The notes under the pieces are model-generated. The model worked only from the letters and a program-made list of their open reading frames with translations. It was not told the origin of the DNA and did no database searches. This document shows positions 921 through 18,000 of a stretch of DNA of 18,372 bases, piece after piece. Positions within the stretch are counted from its first letter, which is position 1; each line of letters starts with the position of its first letter. A program made the translations under genes and the position numbers. Source of the DNA: Planctomycetota bacterium (GTDB lineage Bacteria; Planctomycetota; PUPC01; JACPCR01). The stretch is taken from contig JASLXP010000186.1 in NCBI GenBank assembly GCA_030740295.1, positions 1-18,372 on the forward strand, given 5' to 3'.

Positions 921-2525
921 ATGCCGGCCAGGCTAATGGCCATTGAGGGGTTCATATCCGGGCAGACATTCTTTGTGCCGGATGACGAGCCGCTGCGGAT
1001 CGGGCGTATGCCGGACGCGGAGATACCGATCATGGAGCAATCCATGTCGCGTAATCACTGCGAAGTCTTCAGGAAAGGCAATGCGTACATGTTGCTCGAC
1101 CAGGGCTCGAGCAACGGAACTTTTGTCAATGACAAACGCACGGAAACTTGTGTCCTGAAATCGGGCGACGAGGTGCGAACAGGCTCTATCAAATTCGTTT
1201 TTGCCATTGATGAGGAGGCAGCGAAGGAAATACCCACCAAGCTAATCCTGGTTCCTGAAGCGGAGGAGAAAGGAAGCAAAGACAGGCAGTTCGAAGCAGA
1301 GAAAAGCGGCCGGAAGGATTCGGCTCTGATACAGCTCCTCGAGCCACTGAGGCAGCAGAGAATTCCAAATGCTTCGCCAGAAGCCAAAACGATTGCCGAA
1401 CCGAAGGATGTGCCTGAAACCATCAAGCCGAAAACAGTGGCTCAGGGATCTTCACCGGCACTGGAACGGATTCGGCCAGAACAGGAGAAAAAGGAAGCGG
1501 CGAAGAAGGGTACGCACCCGGCTATCGAAGCCGGTGTGCCAACCATCAGCGAACCGCGGAAAAGACCGGCGCCACCTTCAAAACGACATTTTGTCAACCG
1601 TTGCCCAAACTGCACGAAGCCGATCTATCAGGACGAGATGGACAGCGGCCAATGCAAGACGCTGGAAGCCAAACTACACTGCCCCGGATGCACGGAATGC
1701 ATCGAGCTCGTCGGTAAAGACTTCGGCGATTACCACGTGTTCGGGCTGCTATCCATCAGCTCTATTGGAGCCATTTATAGAGCGCAGCATATCGAGACCG
1801 ATCATCCGGTGGCGCTGAAGATCATGACGCGTGAGGCGGCCAAAGGTGAAGACGCGGTCCTGCGGTATATCCGGCAAGCCAAAGTTGGTAAGGAGATCGA
1901 TCATCCGAACATTGCGGCGATTTACGATCTTGGCGCGTTTGAGGGCAAGCCGTTCATCGTGATTCAATTCATAGCCGGCCAGTCACTGATGAGCATGATT
2001 CATCAGAAAGGCAAGCTGACTCAGAAGGAGGCCGCGGCCTTTGTCTGGCCCATCGCAGATGGGCTTTACCACGCGCACGAACGCGACATCATCATCCGGG
2101 ATTTTCGACCCCACCTCATCAAGATCAGTCAGAAAAGTGTTCCCATCCTGACCGACCTGGGCCTTGCCAAGAGCATCAGCGATCCCGGCAGCCAGTTGAC
2201 CGGACAGCATCAGCGGGTTGGCAAGCCGGGCTACCTCGCCCCGGAGCAGATCCGAACCGAAAAGAAACTCGACCACCGCGTCGACATCTACGCGCTCGGC
2301 GCCACTCTCTACCACGCGGTAACCGGGCGTCCTCCTTTCGTCGGTGAGACCGCGCGTGAGATCATGCAGAAGACGCTCGGCGACCCGGCGCCGAATCCGA
2401 CAGAGTTCAATACCGGTCTCTCGGACGATTTCGTTCTGGCTATAGCCACTGCTATGGCTAAGAAGCCCGAGGAGCGGTTTATAAGCGCGAAGCAATTTGG
2501 CGCTGTTTTAAAGCACTTTGCGTGA
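921..2525 (+). CDS. FHA domain / zinc-ribbon / Ser-Thr kinase-fold protein, probable pseudokinase
   Basis: This is a 534-residue cytoplasmic protein with no membrane segment. An N-terminal FHA domain (about 5-95) has RIGR at 26-29, SRNH at 43-46 and SSNGTFVN at 63-70, so it should bind phosphothreonine peptides. A charged, Pro/Lys/Glu-rich linker (100-220) leads to a zinc-ribbon-like knuckle (C228, C231, C254, C257). A Hanks-type kinase fold covers 268-534. It keeps the VALK lysine (K300), the Asp of IRD (D394), DLG (412-414), APE (440-442) and the DxxxxG helix-F motif. The glycine loop reads LSISSIG, the alpha-C Glu position is Gln319, HRD is IRD, the catalytic-loop Lys is Arg396 and the metal-binding Asn is Leu399. 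I infer a signalling scaffold or very weak kinase. GGAGGGG at 911-917 supports the start. Confidence 0.85.
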   Translation: MPARLMAIEGFISGQTFFVPDDEPLRIGRMPDAEIPIMEQSMSRNHCEVFRKGNAYMLLDQGSSNGTFVNDKRTETCVLKSGDEVRTGSIKFVFAIDEEAAKEIPTKLILVPEAEEKGSKDRQFEAEKSGRKDSALIQLLEPLRQQRIPNASPEAKTIAEPKDVPETIKPKTVAQGSSPALERIRPEQEKKEAAKKGTHPAIEAGVPTISEPRKRPAPPSKRHFVNRCPNCTKPIYQDEMDSGQCKTLEAKLHCPGCTECIELVGKDFGDYHVFGLLSISSIGAIYRAQHIETDHPVALKIMTREAAKGEDAVLRYIRQAKVGKEIDHPNIAAIYDLGAFEGKPFIVIQFIAGQSLMSMIHQKGKLTQKEAAAFVWPIADGLYHAHERDIIIRDFRPHLIKISQKSVPILTDLGLAKSISDPGSQLTGQHQRVGKPGYLAPEQIRTEKKLDHRVDIYALGATLYHAVTGRPPFVGETAREIMQKTLGDPAPNPTEFNTGLSDDFVLAIATAMAKKPEERFISAKQFGAVLKHFA

Positions 2526-3956: not shown

Positions 3957-4072
3957 GTTTCCGTTTCGTTATTTGAGTCTATATTCTCTCGCACAGGCGT
4001 GTCTGAGCTGCCGCGGGGCACAGCGCTATTGTGGTCTCGACGCTTCGCGACAAGATTCAGGAGGACCTCGAT

Positions 4073-5287
4073 ATGGCCAACCAGAAACCCTCCCGCCGGC
4101 GAAGCCAGAAAAACCGGAAGCAGGCGAGCGGCGGAACGCTGGATCTTGAGAGGCGGGCCGAGAAAATTTACCGTGAGATAGAGGAACTGTCCCGCGATCT
4201 CCTCCACTGCCGATATCACGGCCAGGAGGCCCATTTCCCGCCCCTCAAGCTGGAACTGTCTGTTTCGCCATTTCAGAAGTCAGAGGAAGGTACCTCCGGC
4301 GGCTCTGAAATCATAGGTCAGTTTCTCAGCCAGATGGAAAATGCCTTTCGCCCGGAGGGCTTCAAAGAAGGCCGCATCTATTGCTATCTCTGCGAATCCG
4401 CGGATTGCACACATTCTGAACCGACCTCTCCCAAAGCCGTGTTCGTCGGCTACTCCACCAACGGCAAGCCCGATTGGGAAGATTTCTCCAATTTCCTGCT
4501 CCATCAGTCTGAATCCCGTGCTGACCAACTCTACGAAAAACGTCCGCTGGTAATTGCGATCCCGCAGCACGGAGACGACCTGCACGCCAATCAGCTCTCC
4601 GCTTTTGGCCGCACCTCGCCTACCCACCACATTCTGGGGCAGGTTGTTTCCGGCTATTACAAAGAATCTGAGAAGGAAACAGGCGGACGCTGGGCTGTAT
4701 CACTGCAGGCAGTCGAATATCGAATGCGGGATGGCCGGCCCAGACTGGATCTGAATGTGGTCAGCGGGGCTCTGGGCTCGGCGGGCCTCTCGGGCATACT
4801 CACTCAGCAGAATGACGAAGGCCTCTATGCGACTGTTGCACGTGCCCGGGGGATGATCGGCTCGATAGGTGAGCGGTCGATCAATCGGCGAACCGGCGAA
4901 TGGTACAGCCGTAAATTCGAATCAAATGTTTACGACGTCCTCCAGAATCTGGCACGTTTCCTCGAGCGCAACGATCACCACCACCGCAGCCGAACCAGAC
5001 ACGCCCGCATAGAACGTACACGCTCCGACCGACCGATCTCCTCGGCACTCAGCGACACCGAACGCGCCCGGGACACCGATGTCTTTATCGACTCAAGAAA
5101 CTCCACCATCGTGGTCATCGGCCCACACAACCGCACCCACGTTTTCAATGCCGAGGGCCGCCTCGTCACCAGCATCAACTACGAAGGCGATGAGATAAAG
5201 CGTAAGCTCCGCATCCGGCACTGGACCCCGGCGACTGCCGAGGAGACCCAGAAATTCCGAAGAGCAGTGGCAGCCTTCAGGAGGTGA
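4073..5287 (+). CDS. Conserved-looking protein of unknown function with CxxCx4CxH motif
   Basis: I do not recognise this 404-residue family. I chose the ATG at 4073, not the in-frame GTG at 4031, because AGGAGG lies 8 nt upstream of the ATG. The N-terminus is very basic (RRRSQKNRK, 8-16). A zinc-site-like motif C104-x2-C107-x4-C112-x-H114 recalls SWIM-type CxC...CxH fingers but has different spacing. It is followed by KAVFVGYSTNGKPDWEDF. A His/Arg-rich stretch (about 299-320) separates a final module that includes VFIDSRNSTIVVIGPHNRTHVFNAEG. No signal peptide or membrane helix is visible. ruvC follows 42 nt later, suggesting shared transcription and perhaps a nucleic-acid role, which is inference. 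A weak promoter (TTGTTT, 19-bp spacer, TATATT at 3980-3985) lies upstream. Confidence 0.85.
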   Translation: MANQKPSRRRSQKNRKQASGGTLDLERRAEKIYREIEELSRDLLHCRYHGQEAHFPPLKLELSVSPFQKSEEGTSGGSEIIGQFLSQMENAFRPEGFKEGRIYCYLCESADCTHSEPTSPKAVFVGYSTNGKPDWEDFSNFLLHQSESRADQLYEKRPLVIAIPQHGDDLHANQLSAFGRTSPTHHILGQVVSGYYKESEKETGGRWAVSLQAVEYRMRDGRPRLDLNVVSGALGSAGLSGILTQQNDEGLYATVARARGMIGSIGERSINRRTGEWYSRKFESNVYDVLQNLARFLERNDHHHRSRTRHARIERTRSDRPISSALSDTERARDTDVFIDSRNSTIVVIGPHNRTHVFNAEGRLVTSINYEGDEIKRKLRIRHWTPATAEETQKFRRAVAAFRR

Positions 5288-5329: not shown

Positions 5330-5812
5330 ATGCGCGTCCTTGGCATCGATCCCGGTACCGTCACCTGCGGCTATGGCGTCATTGACTATCGAAGCAACAG
5401 CTTCCAGTCTGTGGCCTATGGCGCGATCAGGTGCAAGCCTAAAACACCGTTCGAAGAGCGACTTGCCACGATATTCACGGGCCTGGAAGAAATCATCGAG
5501 CAGCACAAGCCCGACTGCGTAGCCATCGAAGAGGCATTCGCCGGCAAGAGCATCCAGACTGCGTTGCGAATCGGTGAAGCGAGGGGCATCGCAATTCTGT
5601 CCGCTTCCAAAGTCGGCCTGCCGGTGTCTCAATACCCGCCCCGGCTGGTGAAGAAAGCGGTGGTCGGTGCAGGGGGCGCGCACAAATCACAGGTGCAGAA
5701 AATGGTACAGGTCGTCCTTTCTCTCCCGGAGCTTCCTAAGCCGGATGATGCATCGGATGCGCTGGCCATTGCCATCTGCCATTGCCATCGGGCGGACGGA
5801 AGAATGGGATGA
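5330..5812 (+). CDS. ruvC: Holliday-junction resolvase RuvC
   Basis: This endonuclease cuts Holliday junctions during recombinational repair, working with RuvAB, whose genes are not in this window. The protein has 160 residues, the usual size. Its RNase-H-like fold motifs are complete: LGIDPGT with D7, IEEAFAGKS with E67, and PDDASDALAIAICHCH with D140 and D143, matching the four acidic catalytic residues known in E. coli RuvC. The start is fixed by family alignment, since the GIDPG strand begins at residue 5. No Shine-Dalgarno is evident, so translation may depend on coupling with the upstream 404-residue gene 42 nt away. Confidence 0.95.
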   Translation: MRVLGIDPGTVTCGYGVIDYRSNSFQSVAYGAIRCKPKTPFEERLATIFTGLEEIIEQHKPDCVAIEEAFAGKSIQTALRIGEARGIAILSASKVGLPVSQYPPRLVKKAVVGAGGAHKSQVQKMVQVVLSLPELPKPDDASDALAIAICHCHRADGRMG

Positions 5813-11681: not shown

Positions 11682-12299
11682 TTACAGATCCACCCCACGT
11701 TCCCTGATATGAGGCCTCAGTAACGGAATCAGCTCATCCGCTGTCTCGACGCGAAAATCAGGAGCCGGCATGCTGTCCGGCGGTTCCTGCGAGGGGATGA
11801 GTGCAGTGCGCATGCCGGCGGCCTGTCCAGTGATGATGTCGTACTGGAAGTCACCGATGAAAATGCAGAATGCCGGCTCGACCTCTATCAATCGGGCTGC
11901 CAGGAGGGCCGGCTCCGGAGAAGGCTTGACCGGGGCATCCTCTCTGGTGACTGAGGCTTGCACGCGGATATCCAGTTTGCTGAGCGTGGCATTCAGGCAG
12001 GCGCGGCTGTTCCGTGTCACGATGGCGATCCGGACTGAGGCCGCGTACAGAAAATCAAGGAGCTCCGGTACTCCGTTGTTGAATTCGGCGTCGTTCGCGG
12101 CCCGGGCTTCAAAATCGTCCAGCATCTTTGAGCGGTGATCGCGGTCTTCCGGCTCGAGCGTATCGAGATACTCGAGGATTGGGGTTCTTCCCGGTATTTC
12201 CAATGCGGCTCGGATAGCGTTGAAATCCAGGATGGGCCTGGTGAGGGTACCATCCAGATCGAAAATGACGCCCCGGATGGGCTCGGGTGTGGGGGTCAC
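11682..12299 (-). CDS. HAD-superfamily phosphatase (phosphoglycolate phosphatase-like)
   Basis: The 205-residue hydrolase carries all four HAD motifs: DLDGT with the nucleophile D14 and acid/base D16, Thr95 in IVTRN, Lys125 in PVKPSPEP, and the metal-binding GDFQYD with D150 and D154. A helical cap of subfamily I type lies between motifs I and II (about 25-75). It likely dephosphorylates a small metabolite; the substrate is not known. The start is GTG at 12297-12299, which overlaps the TGA stop of the upstream FHA gene as GTGA. This implies translational coupling, and no other start fits before motif I. The purine-rich end of the FHA gene (AAGAAAGAG) may serve as its ribosome-binding site. 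Confidence 0.9.
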   Translation of the reverse strand: MTPTPEPIRGVIFDLDGTLTRPILDFNAIRAALEIPGRTPILEYLDTLEPEDRDHRSKMLDDFEARAANDAEFNNGVPELLDFLYAASVRIAIVTRNSRACLNATLSKLDIRVQASVTREDAPVKPSPEPALLAARLIEVEPAFCIFIGDFQYDIITGQAAGMRTALIPSQEPPDSMPAPDFRVETADELIPLLRPHIRERGVDL

Positions 12300-12745
12300 T
12301 CTTTCTTCTTGCCGCCGAAGATTCCCAGCAGACCGCCACCCTTCTGATGGAAGGTGAAATCGCAGGCGATGGAGGTGTTCTCTTCGTTGCCTTCGAGCTT
12401 GGTTTTGGCGATTGCCTGGGGGCGTGCGATGAACGTGCTTGTGCCGCTTTCGCTTTCCGAGCCGTCAGATTCGGCGTAAATGATGACAACCCTCAGTACA
12501 TCACCATTCTCCAGTTTACGCTCATCTCTGACCCGTACGTCATTGACGTAAAAGCCATGAGTGCTGCCGGAATCGTGGATGGTGAAATTCCCGGTGAGGG
12601 ACTTGCGAATCTCGAAGTGATACTTCGAGATGATGCGGTTGTTCAACACTATATCGTTGTCGATCCTGCGGCCGACGCGGGTGACCCTGGATGTGAGGGG
12701 AAATTCTTTTCCAGTCTGGTTATCTACAAGTTTTGCTTTGGCCAT
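12296..12745 (-). CDS. Small FHA-domain protein
   Basis: This protein has 149 residues from the ATG at 12743-12745. An alternative ATG at 12775 adds ten residues with no better ribosome-binding site, so the start is uncertain. The FHA domain covers about 4-92, with RVGR (23-26), SKYH (40-43) and DSGSTHGFYVND (58-69). The usual Asn of STNG is His63, which may alter phosphopeptide affinity. A second short stretch (100-130) is probably beta-rich or unstructured, and the end is Gly/Lys-rich (GGGLLGIFGGKKKE). There are no membrane segments. It is coupled to the HAD phosphatase by a GTGA overlap. It is the second FHA protein in this window, and a partner kinase is not identified nearby. Confidence 0.85.
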   Translation of the reverse strand: MAKAKLVDNQTGKEFPLTSRVTRVGRRIDNDIVLNNRIISKYHFEIRKSLTGNFTIHDSGSTHGFYVNDVRVRDERKLENGDVLRVVIIYAESDGSESESGTSTFIARPQAIAKTKLEGNEENTSIACDFTFHQKGGGLLGIFGGKKKE

Positions 12746-12807
12746 GGCTTTTATGAAAGGGAAAGAACCCACCATCGGCCCTGATGGGTCCGTGTGTACG
12801 GGTTGTA

Positions 12808-12850: not shown

Positions 12851-13609
12851 TCAGGCTTCAGCCTTCAGCTCTTCAAGGACTTGTTCGGGAATCTCGAGGT
12901 TTGAGTGGACTCCCTGAACATCGTCATGATCCTCGAGCTCTTCCATGAGCCCTAACACTTTTCGACTGTCATCCGGACTAGCTTCGATGCGATTGTTGGG
13001 AAGGTAGCTCAGCTCAGCGACCTCCACTTCGATCTCATTCTGGTCGAGAGCGCTTTTTACGCTCATAAAGTCTTCCGGGCTACAGGTAATCTCGAAATTC
13101 TCGTCGGTTTCATCGAACTCATCTGCGTTTGCCTCAAGGGCGATCTCCATGAGGTCATCGCTGTCGATTCCGTTCCTTTGTATGACAAAGAGCCCCTTCT
13201 TTTCAAATTGCCAGGCGACACTGCCAGGGGACCCGAGATTCCCGCCTTTCCTGTCGAATATCTTTCGTACCTCTGCGCTGGTGCGATTCCGGTTGTCTGT
13301 CAAGCCTTCGATGAGCAGTGCGATACCCCCCGAGCCGTAGCCTTCGTACATGATTTCAAACAAGTCCTCTTCGCCATCTGTGACTCCTGCACCGCGGTTG
13401 ATTGCCCTTTCAATATTGTCTTTGGGCATGCTTACCGCCTTGGCGCGATCTATGGCGTATTTCAGATGGAGGTTTGCCTCGGGGTCTCCGCCGCCTTGTC
13501 TCGCGGCGGCGATGATGTGTTTCGCCAGCTTGCTGAAGAGCTTTCCACGCTTCGCGTCGTTTGCACCTTTCTTGTGTTTAATGCCGGCCCAATGGGAATG
13601 TCCAGCCAT
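12851..13609 (-). CDS. yebC: YebC/PmpR/TACO1 family protein
   Basis: The 252-residue protein begins with the family signature MAGHSHWAGIKHKKGANDAKRGKLFSKLAK. It continues with AIDRAKAVSMPKDNIERAI and the segment MYEGYGSGGIALLIEGLTDNRNRT, as in all members. The three-domain YebC fold should be complete. The family was long annotated as a transcription regulator; more recent work on bacterial and mitochondrial members links it to translation of proline-rich or stalling sequences. The ribosome-binding site AAGGAGAG lies 5-7 nt upstream. It follows the secreted TPR gene by 25 nt. The gene ends in three consecutive in-frame stops, TGA TAA TAG. ruvC, a frequent neighbour of yebC in other bacteria, is in this window but about 7 kb away. 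Confidence 0.95.
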   Translation of the reverse strand: MAGHSHWAGIKHKKGANDAKRGKLFSKLAKHIIAAARQGGGDPEANLHLKYAIDRAKAVSMPKDNIERAINRGAGVTDGEEDLFEIMYEGYGSGGIALLIEGLTDNRNRTSAEVRKIFDRKGGNLGSPGSVAWQFEKKGLFVIQRNGIDSDDLMEIALEANADEFDETDENFEITCSPEDFMSVKSALDQNEIEVEVAELSYLPNNRIEASPDDSRKVLGLMEELEDHDDVQGVHSNLEIPEQVLEELKAEA

Positions 13610-13634: not shown

Positions 13635-15407
13635 TCAGTCCAGGCTCTCAAGTTTCTTCCTGACTGCATTCAATTTCGAGTCGAACTGGAGTGCTTTTTT
13701 CCAGTGAACTTTGGCTTCTGAACTCTCGCCCTGAGCATGATAAATATCACCCAGGTGGTCTCTTAGGACCGAATCGTCGTGGATGTTAATGGCTTCGTGA
13801 AGTTTTTCCAGTGCCTCTTGGTGCCGCCCAAGCTTGAAGAAAGCCCAGCCAAGGCTATCGAGGTATGCCCAGTTTTTGGGATTTGCTTTGAGGGCACCCT
13901 GAATCAGGGCGACCGCTTCCTCGAGATTACGCCCACGCTCGGCGTAGAAATAGCCAAGATGGTTCATCGCGCGATGATTCTCTGGGTCTTCGTGCAGGAC
14001 GCCTTTCAGAACCTTTTCCGCTTTGTCGTCCAGCTTTTCCTCATCGTAGAGCATGGCTAGATAGAGGCTGGTGTCCGCATGGCCCGGCAGTTTTTCGAGC
14101 CCCTTTTCAAGGATGGCGATGGCGTCCGTCCGTTTGTTAAGGGCCGTGAGAACCTGGGCCTGCATCCGGGACAGCATGATGAACTCTTTCTTGTCGTTCG
14201 AATGTTGCTGGATGAGATTCATCTCCTCGATGCACTTCTCCGCATCTTCGTCACGGCCGAGCGCGGCATAGGAACGACCCATGAGCTCATAGGCCATCCG
14301 GTTCACGCGGTCGCCGAACCGTTCCAGATACTCCTGGCCCACCTCGATGGTCTTGTCGTGTTCCTTGAGAAGCTGGTAACAGTAGACCAGGCGGTACAGG
14401 GCGTCCTTGTATTTGGGCCAGACTCTTCTGACCGACTCGAGCACTTGCGCGGCACGCGCGTATTTTTCGAGGTCGATATAAATGTCGGCCACTTCGTAGA
14501 GCAGCTCCGCTTTGTCGGGATGACGCACCGCTGCCGTGAGGTAAGCGTTGACGGCCTTCATTGGCTGACTGGTTCGCCGGTAGATGCGGCCGAGGAGCTC
14601 TTGGCCCGCGCCCCACTCAGGCTCAATTTTCAGGGCTGTTTCAAATGCCTTCTTCGCGAGGCCGAAATTGCGCTCCTGCTGGTGCAGGAGCCCAAGCCGG
14701 AAGTATGGGATGAAGTCCGAATCGCCAACCGATATGGCTTTCTTCTTCAGGTCAGCGACATCGTCAGGCAGGCGGCGATAGATGCGCTCCAGTGCCTGGC
14801 TTGTGCGGACGAGAGAAGGCCTGTTCCTGAGCACAATCTCATACTGGGACGCGCAGTCATTCATGCGCTTGGTCATCCGGTAGAGCGTGGCGAGCAGAAA
14901 GTGCAGGCGGATGTCTCCCGATTTGAGTTTGGCGGCCTTTTCAAGATGTCTGGAGGCGAGGTCGAGCTTGTTGTCTCTGAAATAGAGTCGGCCCAGTTCC
15001 CAGTTCCCTTTGAAATCCTCCGGATCAATCTCCAGCGCTCGGATCAGATGCTTTCTGGCCTCGGCACTATTCCCGAGGTCCTGGTGAATCTGGGCCAGAT
15101 TGCGCAATACAGGGACGGCGTCCGGATCATGTTTGAGAGCGCTCGTAAAGAATTCGAGTGCCGCATCCTTGTCTTTTCTGAGTAGTGCGCTGATTCCTTT
15201 GGCGAAATTGGCGTACGCCTGGGGCGGGGTGGATTTTTCTTCCGCTGGCTCTGCGGACGCCTGTTTCTCTTCGGGAGGGGCTTTCTTTTCTGCCGGGGTC
15301 GCCTTTTCCTCTGCCGGAGCCACCTTATCCTGTGCTCTGATGACGCCGCCCAGCCCCAGGCTGATGGTAAAAATGGCAGTCAACCTGGTGAATCTGAGAT
15401 TGGGCAC
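13635..15407 (-). CDS. Exported tetratricopeptide-repeat protein
   Basis: The 590-residue protein starts with GTG at 15405-15407, 5 nt after the hisG stop. Residues 1-25 form a signal peptide ending near VIRA, so the mature protein should be periplasmic or surface-associated. Residues 28-62 are an Ala/Glu/Lys/Pro-rich low-complexity spacer with repeated AEEK-like units. From about 65 to the end the sequence is almost all TPR repeats (roughly 12-15), with classic helices such as ALEIDPEDFKGNWELGRLYF. It is a probable scaffold for envelope or secretion complexes; partners are unknown. No clear Shine-Dalgarno precedes the GTG, so coupling to hisG is likely. The 368-residue open frame on the opposite strand (14079-15185) is a shadow of this coding sequence. 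Confidence 0.88.
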   Translation of the reverse strand: MPNLRFTRLTAIFTISLGLGGVIRAQDKVAPAEEKATPAEKKAPPEEKQASAEPAEEKSTPPQAYANFAKGISALLRKDKDAALEFFTSALKHDPDAVPVLRNLAQIHQDLGNSAEARKHLIRALEIDPEDFKGNWELGRLYFRDNKLDLASRHLEKAAKLKSGDIRLHFLLATLYRMTKRMNDCASQYEIVLRNRPSLVRTSQALERIYRRLPDDVADLKKKAISVGDSDFIPYFRLGLLHQQERNFGLAKKAFETALKIEPEWGAGQELLGRIYRRTSQPMKAVNAYLTAAVRHPDKAELLYEVADIYIDLEKYARAAQVLESVRRVWPKYKDALYRLVYCYQLLKEHDKTIEVGQEYLERFGDRVNRMAYELMGRSYAALGRDEDAEKCIEEMNLIQQHSNDKKEFIMLSRMQAQVLTALNKRTDAIAILEKGLEKLPGHADTSLYLAMLYDEEKLDDKAEKVLKGVLHEDPENHRAMNHLGYFYAERGRNLEEAVALIQGALKANPKNWAYLDSLGWAFFKLGRHQEALEKLHEAINIHDDSVLRDHLGDIYHAQGESSEAKVHWKKALQFDSKLNAVRKKLESLD

Positions 15408-15412
15408 AGTGG

Positions 15413-16282
15413 CTATGGGATAACTTTGTTCAGCGGATACTCGATGATGCCTTCGGCGCCGGCACGTTTCAACTCTGGAACGATATCCCTTACCACGCTT
15501 TCGTCAATGATCGTTTCAATCGCGCTCCAATCCGGTTCGGCAAGTTGGGAAATGGTGGGGCGGCGCATTGCAGGCAGCAGGCTGAGGACCTGTTCTATTC
15601 TCGATGTTTCGATATTCATCTTTAGCCCAACCTTTCCTTTGGCGTTGATCGCCCCCTGCAGCAGCATGGCGAGATTTTCCATCTTGGTTCGCTTCCACGG
15701 GTCAGCCCACGCTGCCTTGTTGGCGATGAACTTGGTCGTAGATGTGGTCACCGTATCGATCACCCTGAGGTTATTGGCCCGGAGGCTCGATCCGGTTTCA
15801 GTCACATCTACGATGGCATCGACCAGGCGTGCCTTGACCTCTGTCGCCCCCCACGAAAACTCGACCTTGGCATCCACGCCCTGGCTCTCAAAGTAGCGTT
15901 GAGTTACCTCGATAAGCTCAGTGGCGACTAATTTGCCCTCCAGATCCTGGACGCTCCGGTATTCGGATTCCTCTGGGACAGCCAGTACCCAGCGAACGGG
16001 TTTGAGCCTCTGCTTGGCATAAATCAGCTCGGCCACTTCGACGACATCCACGCCGGACTCATCAATCCAGTCCTGGCCGGTGATGCCGGCGTCGAGGACC
16101 TCGTCGGCCACATATCTTGCCATTTCCTGAGCGCGGAACCGGATAGCTGAGACTTCCGGGTCCGCAGTATTTGCCGTATATGAGCGCGAACTGCCGGAGA
16201 TCTCAAAACCCGCTTTAGCCATCAGAGCCGTTGTGGATTCAGAAAGACTGCCCGCGGGCAATCCCAACTTCAGCACGTTCAT
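15413..16282 (-). CDS. hisG: ATP phosphoribosyltransferase, long form
   Basis: This enzyme catalyses the first and feedback-controlled step of histidine synthesis, joining ATP and PRPP. The 289 residues include the N-terminal [13 protein letters not shown], the PRPP-binding [13 protein letters not shown] (155-167), and a C-terminal ACT-like regulatory domain (about 215-289). That makes it the long HisG type, which is hexameric, is inhibited by histidine and needs no HisZ. GGAG about 8 nt before the ATG is a good ribosome-binding site. It sits 15 nt after the HhH-like gene and 5 nt before the TPR gene. No other his gene is in the window, so histidine synthesis is dispersed or hisG has been separated from its cluster. 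Confidence 0.95.
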
Positions 16283-16297
16283 TTGCGACTCCAGTGA

Positions 16298-17044
16298 CTA
16301 TTTTTTTGCGTTCTTTTTGGCTGCCTTCTTCGTGGTTTTTTGGGCTGAGGCTGCCTTCTTCTCCGGTGCCTTTTTTGCCGTTTTCTTGGCTGCGGGCTTC
16401 TTTGCCGGTGATTTCTTTGCGGTCTTTTTGGATTTCTTCTCCGGCTTCAAGTCATCGGCATACGCACAAAAGAGGTAGTAGGCCTTCAACATCAGTTTCT
16501 TGGGGATGGAGTCTGACAGCAACTGCGCAAGTTCATCGATGTCCTGGTCTTCCGTTGCGACATTGATGGCATGGCATACTTTGACGACCTTGTCCGTCGC
16601 CGGAAAAAACGGATGCCCCAATGACAACAACATGATTTCGTTGAGCGTTGCCCTCGGCAGCCCCGGAAACGCCTTTAGAAAATCGTGGGCTTTTTTCTCT
16701 TTATAGTTAAGAAGGAAGTCCATCGAGAGTTGGTTCTTCTTGACAAACAGACGGCCAAGAGCTGCCTTCAAGATCCGGGCTTTTTCCGGGTCGAGACCGG
16801 CGTCCTTTAAGACGCGGCCGATCTCTGCCACCGCACTCACGCGGACTTCATTCCAGTCAACAAATTCCACCTCGAAGAGCTCAAATGCCTTGCGTGTACC
16901 GGACGGGCTCTCGTTGAGGGAAAGGATGGATTGGAGCATCTGCTCGAATACCGGCATTGGTTCAGCCGGTTCAACATCTTGGTAGACCTTCTCCAGCGAG
17001 GTGATGGTCTTCCGGATGATCTGAGTCTTCTCCTTCTTAGTCAT
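16298..17044 (-). CDS. Endonuclease III-like HhH-GPD protein, catalytically degenerate, with histone-H1-like tail
   Basis: The 248-residue protein splits into two parts. Residues 1-195 resemble the helical HhH-GPD fold of endonuclease III: FEQMLQSILSLNESPS fits the LSAQTTD region, FPGLPRATLNE (126-136) fits the LPGVGRKTANV hairpin, and PATDKVVKV (148-156) fits VDTHVFRV. The catalytic Lys is Ala132, the second hairpin Gly is Pro130, and the C-terminal iron-sulfur cysteines are absent; the catalytic Asp appears kept (D151). Residues 200-248 are almost pure Lys/Ala/Pro, with AKK and PAKK repeats like eukaryotic H1 or bacterial H1-like proteins. Both parts suggest a DNA-binding, non-glycosylase role. 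It is first in the hisG operon. No strong Shine-Dalgarno was seen. Fold assignment is by motif alignment only. Confidence 0.75.
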   Translation of the reverse strand: MTKKEKTQIIRKTITSLEKVYQDVEPAEPMPVFEQMLQSILSLNESPSGTRKAFELFEVEFVDWNEVRVSAVAEIGRVLKDAGLDPEKARILKAALGRLFVKKNQLSMDFLLNYKEKKAHDFLKAFPGLPRATLNEIMLLSLGHPFFPATDKVVKVCHAINVATEDQDIDELAQLLSDSIPKKLMLKAYYLFCAYADDLKPEKKSKKTAKKSPAKKPAAKKTAKKAPEKKAASAQKTTKKAAKKNAKK

Positions 17045-17266: not shown

Positions 17267-17958
17267 CTAACGAATGCCGCCATCGCCGAGGGTTCTCATC
17301 ATCCGCTCCTGGTCTTCATCGCGGAGTTGGGGAACTCGATCAACATCCCAGAGGTCGTCGAGTGCGCGGTATCGGCGCGGGCCAAGAAGTTCGATTCGCA
17401 GGTCGTTGTAGACGCAGTGTGCCCCCAGTCCTGGCCTCCAGCCTCGTAACGGGAGTGGATGTCTCAAGCCTTGCTCCACAACGATCGGTATATCTGTCGC
17501 CGCGGTTACTGGCAAACTCATGGTCGAACTCTTGCTGAAAATGGGAGTAAGCCAATACGAACAGACGGTGCCGTATTTGGTCTTTCGGGGCGCCTGGTCA
17601 ACAGGACAGAGGAATTGGTCACTCGTCAGCGGTTCTTGCTGAGTCCGCGGTCGCCTTGAGCTGCCAGGCTGAGCCCCGCTCGTGGGCCGATATACCCACC
17701 GAGCCGCTGGATACGGTCGTCCGGGTCGGGAGGGGTGAAGCCGTCCCACTCTGAGCAGTACGTTCTCATTCCCATCGCGATTGCCAGCATTCTCCCGTTA
17801 CAAACGGTACGGGCGTTGGCTCCCTTCACGTGAGATACGACACTCGTCAGGATCACCAGAAAGACGAATGCCAGACCCAATATGGCCACGATTTTCAGAC
17901 GGCTCCGCATGGCAAGTAGAGAGAAGCAGTAGGGACATGTCTGGGCGAGGGCTGCCAT
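17267..17958 (-). pseudogene. Frameshifted pseudopilin-like (H-X9-DG / DUF1559-like) membrane protein
   Basis: Two overlapping frames encode one protein. The first runs from the ATG at 17956-17958: TCPYC, a membrane helix (VAILGLAFVFLVILTSVV), then VCNGRMLAIAMGMRTYCSEWDGFTPP, which matches the C.sNLkQi..A..mY..D.dG.fPP region of pseudopilin-like proteins. It stops at 17626 after GLSKNR. The second frame takes over with EPLTSDQFLCPVDQ and ends with a region like the family's C-terminal H...G.N....D motif. A -1 slip, or restoring one base near 17630-17640 (AGCAAGAACC), joins them as ..LSKEPLTSDQFLCPVD. No slippery heptamer is present, so mutation or sequencing error is likelier than programmed shifting. 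The N-terminus lacks the usual GFTLIELLVV signal. A GTG at 17985 is an alternative start. Confidence 0.65.
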
Positions 17959-18000
17959 CCTACGAATGCAAACCCGCCCTGTCACGAATCCGCAGAAACA

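Follow-up and report, generated by a model that had tools for sequence, protein, structure and literature searches.

An apparently undescribed planctomycete protein family with the endonuclease III fold, very probably non-enzymatic and possibly an adaptor of gene expression or a packer of the nucleoid

Among the closest known systems to the protein described here are the endonucleases EndoIII-1 and EndoIII-3 of Deinococcus radiodurans (PDB 4unf, 8a5c, 4uob, 8a5g), both of which keep the catalytic lysine, the catalytic aspartate and the Fe-S cluster (PMC9268735). The protein of the window, by which we mean the whole stretch of 18,372 nucleotides analysed, has none of the three; conversely, the aligned EndoIII-1 has its Fe-S cysteines in place and does not carry the N-E-x-R signature described below. 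The window protein, a planctomycetal pseudo-EndoIII of 248 amino acids, is encoded on the minus strand (16298..17044) and consists of an all-helical domain with the HhH-GPD fold (residues 1-198, 16451..17044) and a Lys/Ala/Pro-rich tail (residues 199-248, 16301..16450) with 22 lysines in 50 residues and a charge of +20. At the site of the catalytic lysine it has Ala132 (codon 16649..16651), at the site of the catalytic aspartate Thr150 (16595..16597), and the GxG hairpin of the enzymes is degenerate and reads GLP (residues 128-130, 16655..16663). The only cysteines are Cys157 and Cys193. The replacement of the lysine, the missing cysteine cluster and the lysine-rich tail, all pointed out by the sequence-only reading, are thereby confirmed. 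A dN/dS of about 0.13, from one pair, indicates purifying selection on the gene, and the promoter and terminator scan found one of each, against 0.7 and 1.9 in shuffled sequences.

The fold was predicted from an alignment of 93 rows with AF2, which modelled residues 1-200 with a pLDDT of 96.3 and a pTM of 0.90 and supersedes a single-sequence prediction that reached a pLDDT of only 40. Searches of the predicted structure with Foldseek and VIA led to EndoIII and ROS1, fold lists that by their nature cannot rule out a family missing from them, and together with the profiles the model places the domain in the HhH-GPD superfamily with the two-domain, all-helical EndoIII fold. The endonuclease III-like fold proposed earlier thus held when checked by structure prediction. 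In Pfam, no family matches the window protein even at an E of 10, so that PF00730 stays below its cut-off; of 93 relatives, 4 match PF00730 at E<=0.01. The hallmarks of endonuclease III (Nth) are missing, as the lysine of LPGVGRKTA is Ala132, the aspartate is Thr150 and there are no 4Fe-4S cysteines. Against NF053634, the model of the DR2438-type monofunctional HhH-GPD glycosylase, the protein scores 33.9 bits where the cut-off is 400, and the catalytic aspartate of that type is again Thr150. The tail is a lysine-rich stretch of the H1-like kind, and no H1-like model in Pfam or NCBIfam, HC2 included, matches the window protein. Two of 31 relatives match NF038053, and P0026 matches HC2 with 0.0012, below the cut-off.

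The sequence-only reading of one unusual protein is right but understated, for the window protein belongs to a family found across the phylum. A first search yielded 119 homologs, partly drawn by the tail, and a search with the domain only yielded 17. The nearest relative compared (L083) is 78% identical in the domain, 91% in HisG and 86% in YebC. When 84,980 species genomes were searched for the signature pattern, 304 stretches came up, and 251 of them were confirmed; among the best 80 of these 251, 76 bear the name Planctomycetota, one Acidobacteriota and one Pseudomonadota, and two have no stated phylum. Of 294 genomes sampled from the phylum to which the planctomycete isolate L053 belongs, 205 match at E<=1e-25. 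L083 comes from this sample, which makes a planctomycetal origin of the window most likely. From the matches listed for the sample 110 were examined, and two of them (L164 and L166) are canonical enzymes; the ten lowest-scoring ones examined (L203-L212, 108-121 bits) all show the signature, slightly varied, and lack the catalytic lysine. The phylum of the genome named Acidobacteriota gave 14 matches in 60 genomes at 1e-20, one of them that genome itself; its matches of 100-132 bits were considered as family members and rejected, since all ten examined of the 14 are canonical enzymes. The phylum of the genome named Pseudomonadota gave two matches in 60, one being that genome. Two family members lie on contigs named Acidobacteria (L061) and Gammaproteobacteria (L079), and because the family is rare or absent in the samples of those phyla, transfer or mis-binning would account for them. 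Of 59 planctomycete genomes, 42 contain a true Nth that scores above the cut-off, which shows that the family is an additional protein.

The profile search found at least 2157 database proteins at E<=1e-25 among 8000 candidates, the lower-scoring of which may include true enzymes. Many of the 120 matches listed are called endonuclease III or endonuclease-3 at their source; such misleading names occur for P0116 and others, and once the source name is chemotaxis protein histidine kinase CheA. We did not find the family described in titles and abstracts of the open-licence literature, which does not prove its absence in print, nor is there a description in the available parts of PMC10523315, PMC9268735, PMC3440768, PMC8567305, PMC8620282 and PMC4433238; for MutYX, no paper was found in the open-licence literature. 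This bacterial protein family is large and, apparently, undescribed.

In a quick tree of 184 sequences, left from 199 after rows more than 90% identical had been dropped, the 171 family members group in a single clade, separated from the 13 enzymes (SH-aLRT 80); L164 and L166 were placed with the enzymes for the tree counts, and the preceding count of catalytic residues had used 178 unique rows. All 13 enzymes have the lysine, the aspartate and the Fe-S cysteines and none has a tail, a uniformity that is somewhat flattered by their small number and by the origin of ten of them in one phylum. In the family, the lysine is found in 1 of 171 members, the aspartate in 69 and the Fe-S cluster, judged by the cysteine pattern, in 75; the single member with a lysine at the lysine site (L156) has a serine at the aspartate site. 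The same lysine site was inspected in 117 further top-scoring proteins of the profile search, where it is Tyr in 71, Phe in 45, Ser in one and never Lys. Ala132 itself recurs in most of the closest relatives, for example in P0002, P0005, P0007, P0120, P0122 and L083, and is replaced by Thr in P0123 and by Ser in P0008 and P0124. The loss of the Fe-S cluster stands for the window protein and is not a defining feature of the family, because 75 of 171 members keep the cysteines, among them relatives whose domains are 43-46% identical to that of the window.

The residues with which the enzymes bind DNA have largely gone as well. The Gln of the first intercalating loop (12/13 enzymes) and the Gly and Leu of the second (13/13 and 12/13) are mostly lost in the family, and the two hairpin glycines, present in 13/13 and 12/13 enzymes, remain in 88/171 and 12/171 members, respectively. 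The window protein still has Gly83, Leu84 and Gly128, the remaining loop and hairpin residues of the enzymes being gone. The median net charge of the family domain is 0 (quartiles -4 and +3, range -18 to +17) in comparison to +7 to +22 in the enzymes, with overlap between the two. The earlier supposition that the HhH-GPD domain binds DNA is consequently not supported in the family, where loop residues, hairpin and positive charge are mostly lost. On these sequence grounds, the family of HhH-GPD-fold proteins very probably consists of non-enzymes.

What is conserved instead lies elsewhere in the domain, in agreement with the earlier suggestion of a repair-enzyme scaffold put to other use. Most conserved are Arg68 (171/171), Asn65 (170/171), Asp63 (165/171) and Val69, which belong to a near-invariant signature D-W-N-E-x-R-V, in the window FVDWNEVRVS (residues 61-70, 16835..16864); Asp63, Asn65 and Arg68 are also present in all 117 further top-scoring proteins. 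The signature segment has an entropy of 0.83 bits in the family, compared with 2.5-3.5 in its other segments, whereas the lowest values in the enzymes belong to the path to the aspartate, loop 2 and the HhH. Asn65 is new in the family (0/13 enzymes). Some of its conservation may have structural reasons, because D-W---R is partly ancestral, as seen from VDWKAIR in ROS1 and from the arginine in 4 of 13 enzymes. The signature sits between the helix leaving intercalating loop 1 and the helix leading to loop 2, and from this secondary structure it should face away from the DNA cleft, in domain B.

The genomic surroundings point to the gene-expression machinery. Of 130 non-identical loci that reach 3.9 kb or more upstream, 80 contain infB and 99 contain at least one of infB, rbfA, nusA, DUF503, ffh and rpsP, leaving 31 with none; neighbouring genes were named from the Pfam match of one representative per cluster, and the 99 loci are not independent, as the operon context is inherited by descent. 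ffh and rpsP make up a second, different translation cluster. Ribosomal protein S16 genes lie near the family gene, for instance at L020:5602-5931, and four members of the S16 cluster end in a Lys/Arg-rich stretch by the last-40-residue rule described below for the tails. Of 161 loci that extend 600 bases or more upstream, 59 contain rbfA, and in a count of 60 rbfA genes 59 end at most 235 bases before the family gene or reach into it by no more than 35 bases, with a 4-base overlap in ten loci (start codons chosen in the analysis). The 1.3 kb upstream in the window contain none of infB, rbfA, nusA, DUF503, ffh and rpsP, so that the window displays the hisG-TPR-yebC side only: hisG (15413..16282, minus strand, Pfam HisG) starts 15 bases downstream of the stop codon and is the next gene downstream in 29 of the 151 loci that cover 1.2 kb or more on that side, followed on the minus strand by two recurrent neighbours, a TPR-repeat protein assigned by Pfam (13635..15407, a cluster of 30 loci including the window) and yebC (12851..13609, named from the Pfam match of a cluster member, 58 loci including the window). 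On the other side (17267..17985, minus strand), two overlapping ORFs of 160 and 119 amino acids in different frames have no Pfam match and resemble, by eye, two parts of a pseudopilin-like protein, possibly a frameshift or a decayed gene. Elsewhere, the window holds an FHA-domain protein kinase (921..2525, plus strand) and a small FHA protein (12296..12775, minus strand), both by Pfam, an ORF with two stretches of 3-keto-disaccharide hydrolase (PF06439; 6760..8376, minus strand), probably tandem domains, and a 418-amino-acid ORF without a Pfam match (4031..5287, plus strand) beside the ORF 5330..5812, ruvC by eye.

We suggest tentatively, as a reading somewhat short of probable, that the family arose from a repair enzyme and serves as a non-enzymatic adaptor tied to the gene-expression machinery. 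The signature patch, which in domain B should point away from the DNA cleft, would dock to a conserved partner, and the disordered cationic tail would keep the complex attached to nucleic acid of any sequence. Judging by the operon context, this partner is most likely to be RNA polymerase, the ribosome or the ribosome-assembly machinery. Among the functions considered the gene-expression adaptor is the most likely one, with a role in the nucleoid as its main rival. The wider proposal, that the Planctomycetota possess a phylum-wide core protein in which a dead glycosylase became either a structural adaptor between nucleic acid and the gene-expression machinery or a packer of the condensed nucleoid, is possible, and we regard it as more doubtful than the adaptor itself.

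An abundant nucleoid-associated protein, in which the H1-like tail compacts DNA and the dead domain serves as a spacer or oligomerisation module, comes close to what the sequence-only reading proposed and is on balance unlikely for the family. In its favour, a Lys/Arg-rich tail ends 119 of 167 members with a countable end by the rule applied to the tree. By a separate rule on the last 40 residues, 100 of 176 rows of the family, in which some genomes appear twice, have a Lys/Arg-rich low-complexity end, as do 5 of 411 neighbouring ORFs on the same strand that belong to clusters with at least three members. The frequent place in housekeeping operons would fit the high expression of a nucleoid protein, and bead-like particles have been observed on the DNA of the condensed Gemmata nucleoid in a 2012 study, which left their identity to future work (PMC3440768). 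However, the conserved part of the family is the DWNEVR patch and not the tail, which 48 of 167 members do not clearly have; the conservation expected of the tail holds in the window's clade (12/12 rows) and not family-wide, where the tree implies 30 or more changes of its state. Moreover, the domain is without most of the DNA-binding residues of the enzymes, and the linkage is to translation and transcription genes and not to chromosome genes. Of the two roles put forward by the sequence-only reading, the one in the nucleoid is possible, and lesion marking is unsupported.

A residual monofunctional glycosylase or lesion binder, in which the members with Asp and Tyr or Phe act and the lineage of the window is a degenerate branch, appears quite improbable to us. 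The aspartate is kept in 112 of the 117 top-scoring proteins in addition to the 69 of 171 members, and the former mostly combine it with Tyr or Phe in place of the lysine (116), as is conceivable for a monofunctional glycosylase. The nearest NCBIfam model, which 27 of 31 members match at E<=1e-3, describes an enzyme of this monofunctional kind. Against this stands the state of the other sites: the 69 Asp-retaining members have the loop Gln in six and the Gly of loop 2 in five cases, and their second hairpin Gly is outside the five commonest residues at its site, while the 117 proteins have Glu at the loop Gln site in 108 and Ser or Thr at the second Gly in 104 cases. Furthermore, 144 of 171 members carry Asp, Thr, Ser or Asn at the aspartate site, which lies directly before helix 151-159 in the AF2 model. 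All four of these residues are good helix caps. Since both the choice of residues and the position fit helix capping, we think that a structural role explains the retention of the aspartate better than catalysis does. It also speaks against a glycosylase that a true Nth is separately present in most of the sampled genomes and that the window protein has neither the lysine nor the aspartate.

The compensatory exchange of the Fe-S cluster loop for the tail as the DNA-binding element is very improbable, because the raw table in its favour (a tail in 73 of 92 members without and 46 of 75 with the cluster) is unsupported by independent pairs on the tree (n=9, starred branches; on average, tail changing the same way 0.7, opposite 1.1, no difference 7.2), a test to which so few informative pairs give little power.

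Proteins of this family should not be counted as repair enzymes by name alone, given that the catalytic lysine is found in 0 of 117 and 1 of 171 members examined. Should the family prove to be a core adaptor or nucleoid protein, it would bear on the open question of the Gemmata particles, and the combination of a conserved patch with a separable tail makes the proposal directly testable.

Among the other close systems, the plant 5-methylcytosine glycosylases ROS1 and DME differ at the active site, where ROS1 reads GLGLKS with its lysine and the window protein GLPRAT. ROS1 is also much longer and has further domains. AlkD2 is a DNA glycosylase paralog with weak DNA binding and no excision of alkylpurines (PMC4433238). 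It is likewise a glycosylase homolog without the normal activity, built of HEAT-like repeats and thus of a fold unrelated to that of the window protein. Mag2 of Schizosaccharomyces pombe, an HhH-GPD protein in the fold list, is titled a glycosylase homolog sculpting DNA at abasic sites and is counted as a monofunctional glycosylase in a review (PMC8620282). It binds lesions. To our knowledge, neither AlkD2 nor Mag2 has a lysine tail. With the bacterial H1-like proteins of the HC1/HC2 type, finally, the window protein has the Lys/Ala/Pro-rich low-complexity tail in common, which here is the appendage of a folded domain.
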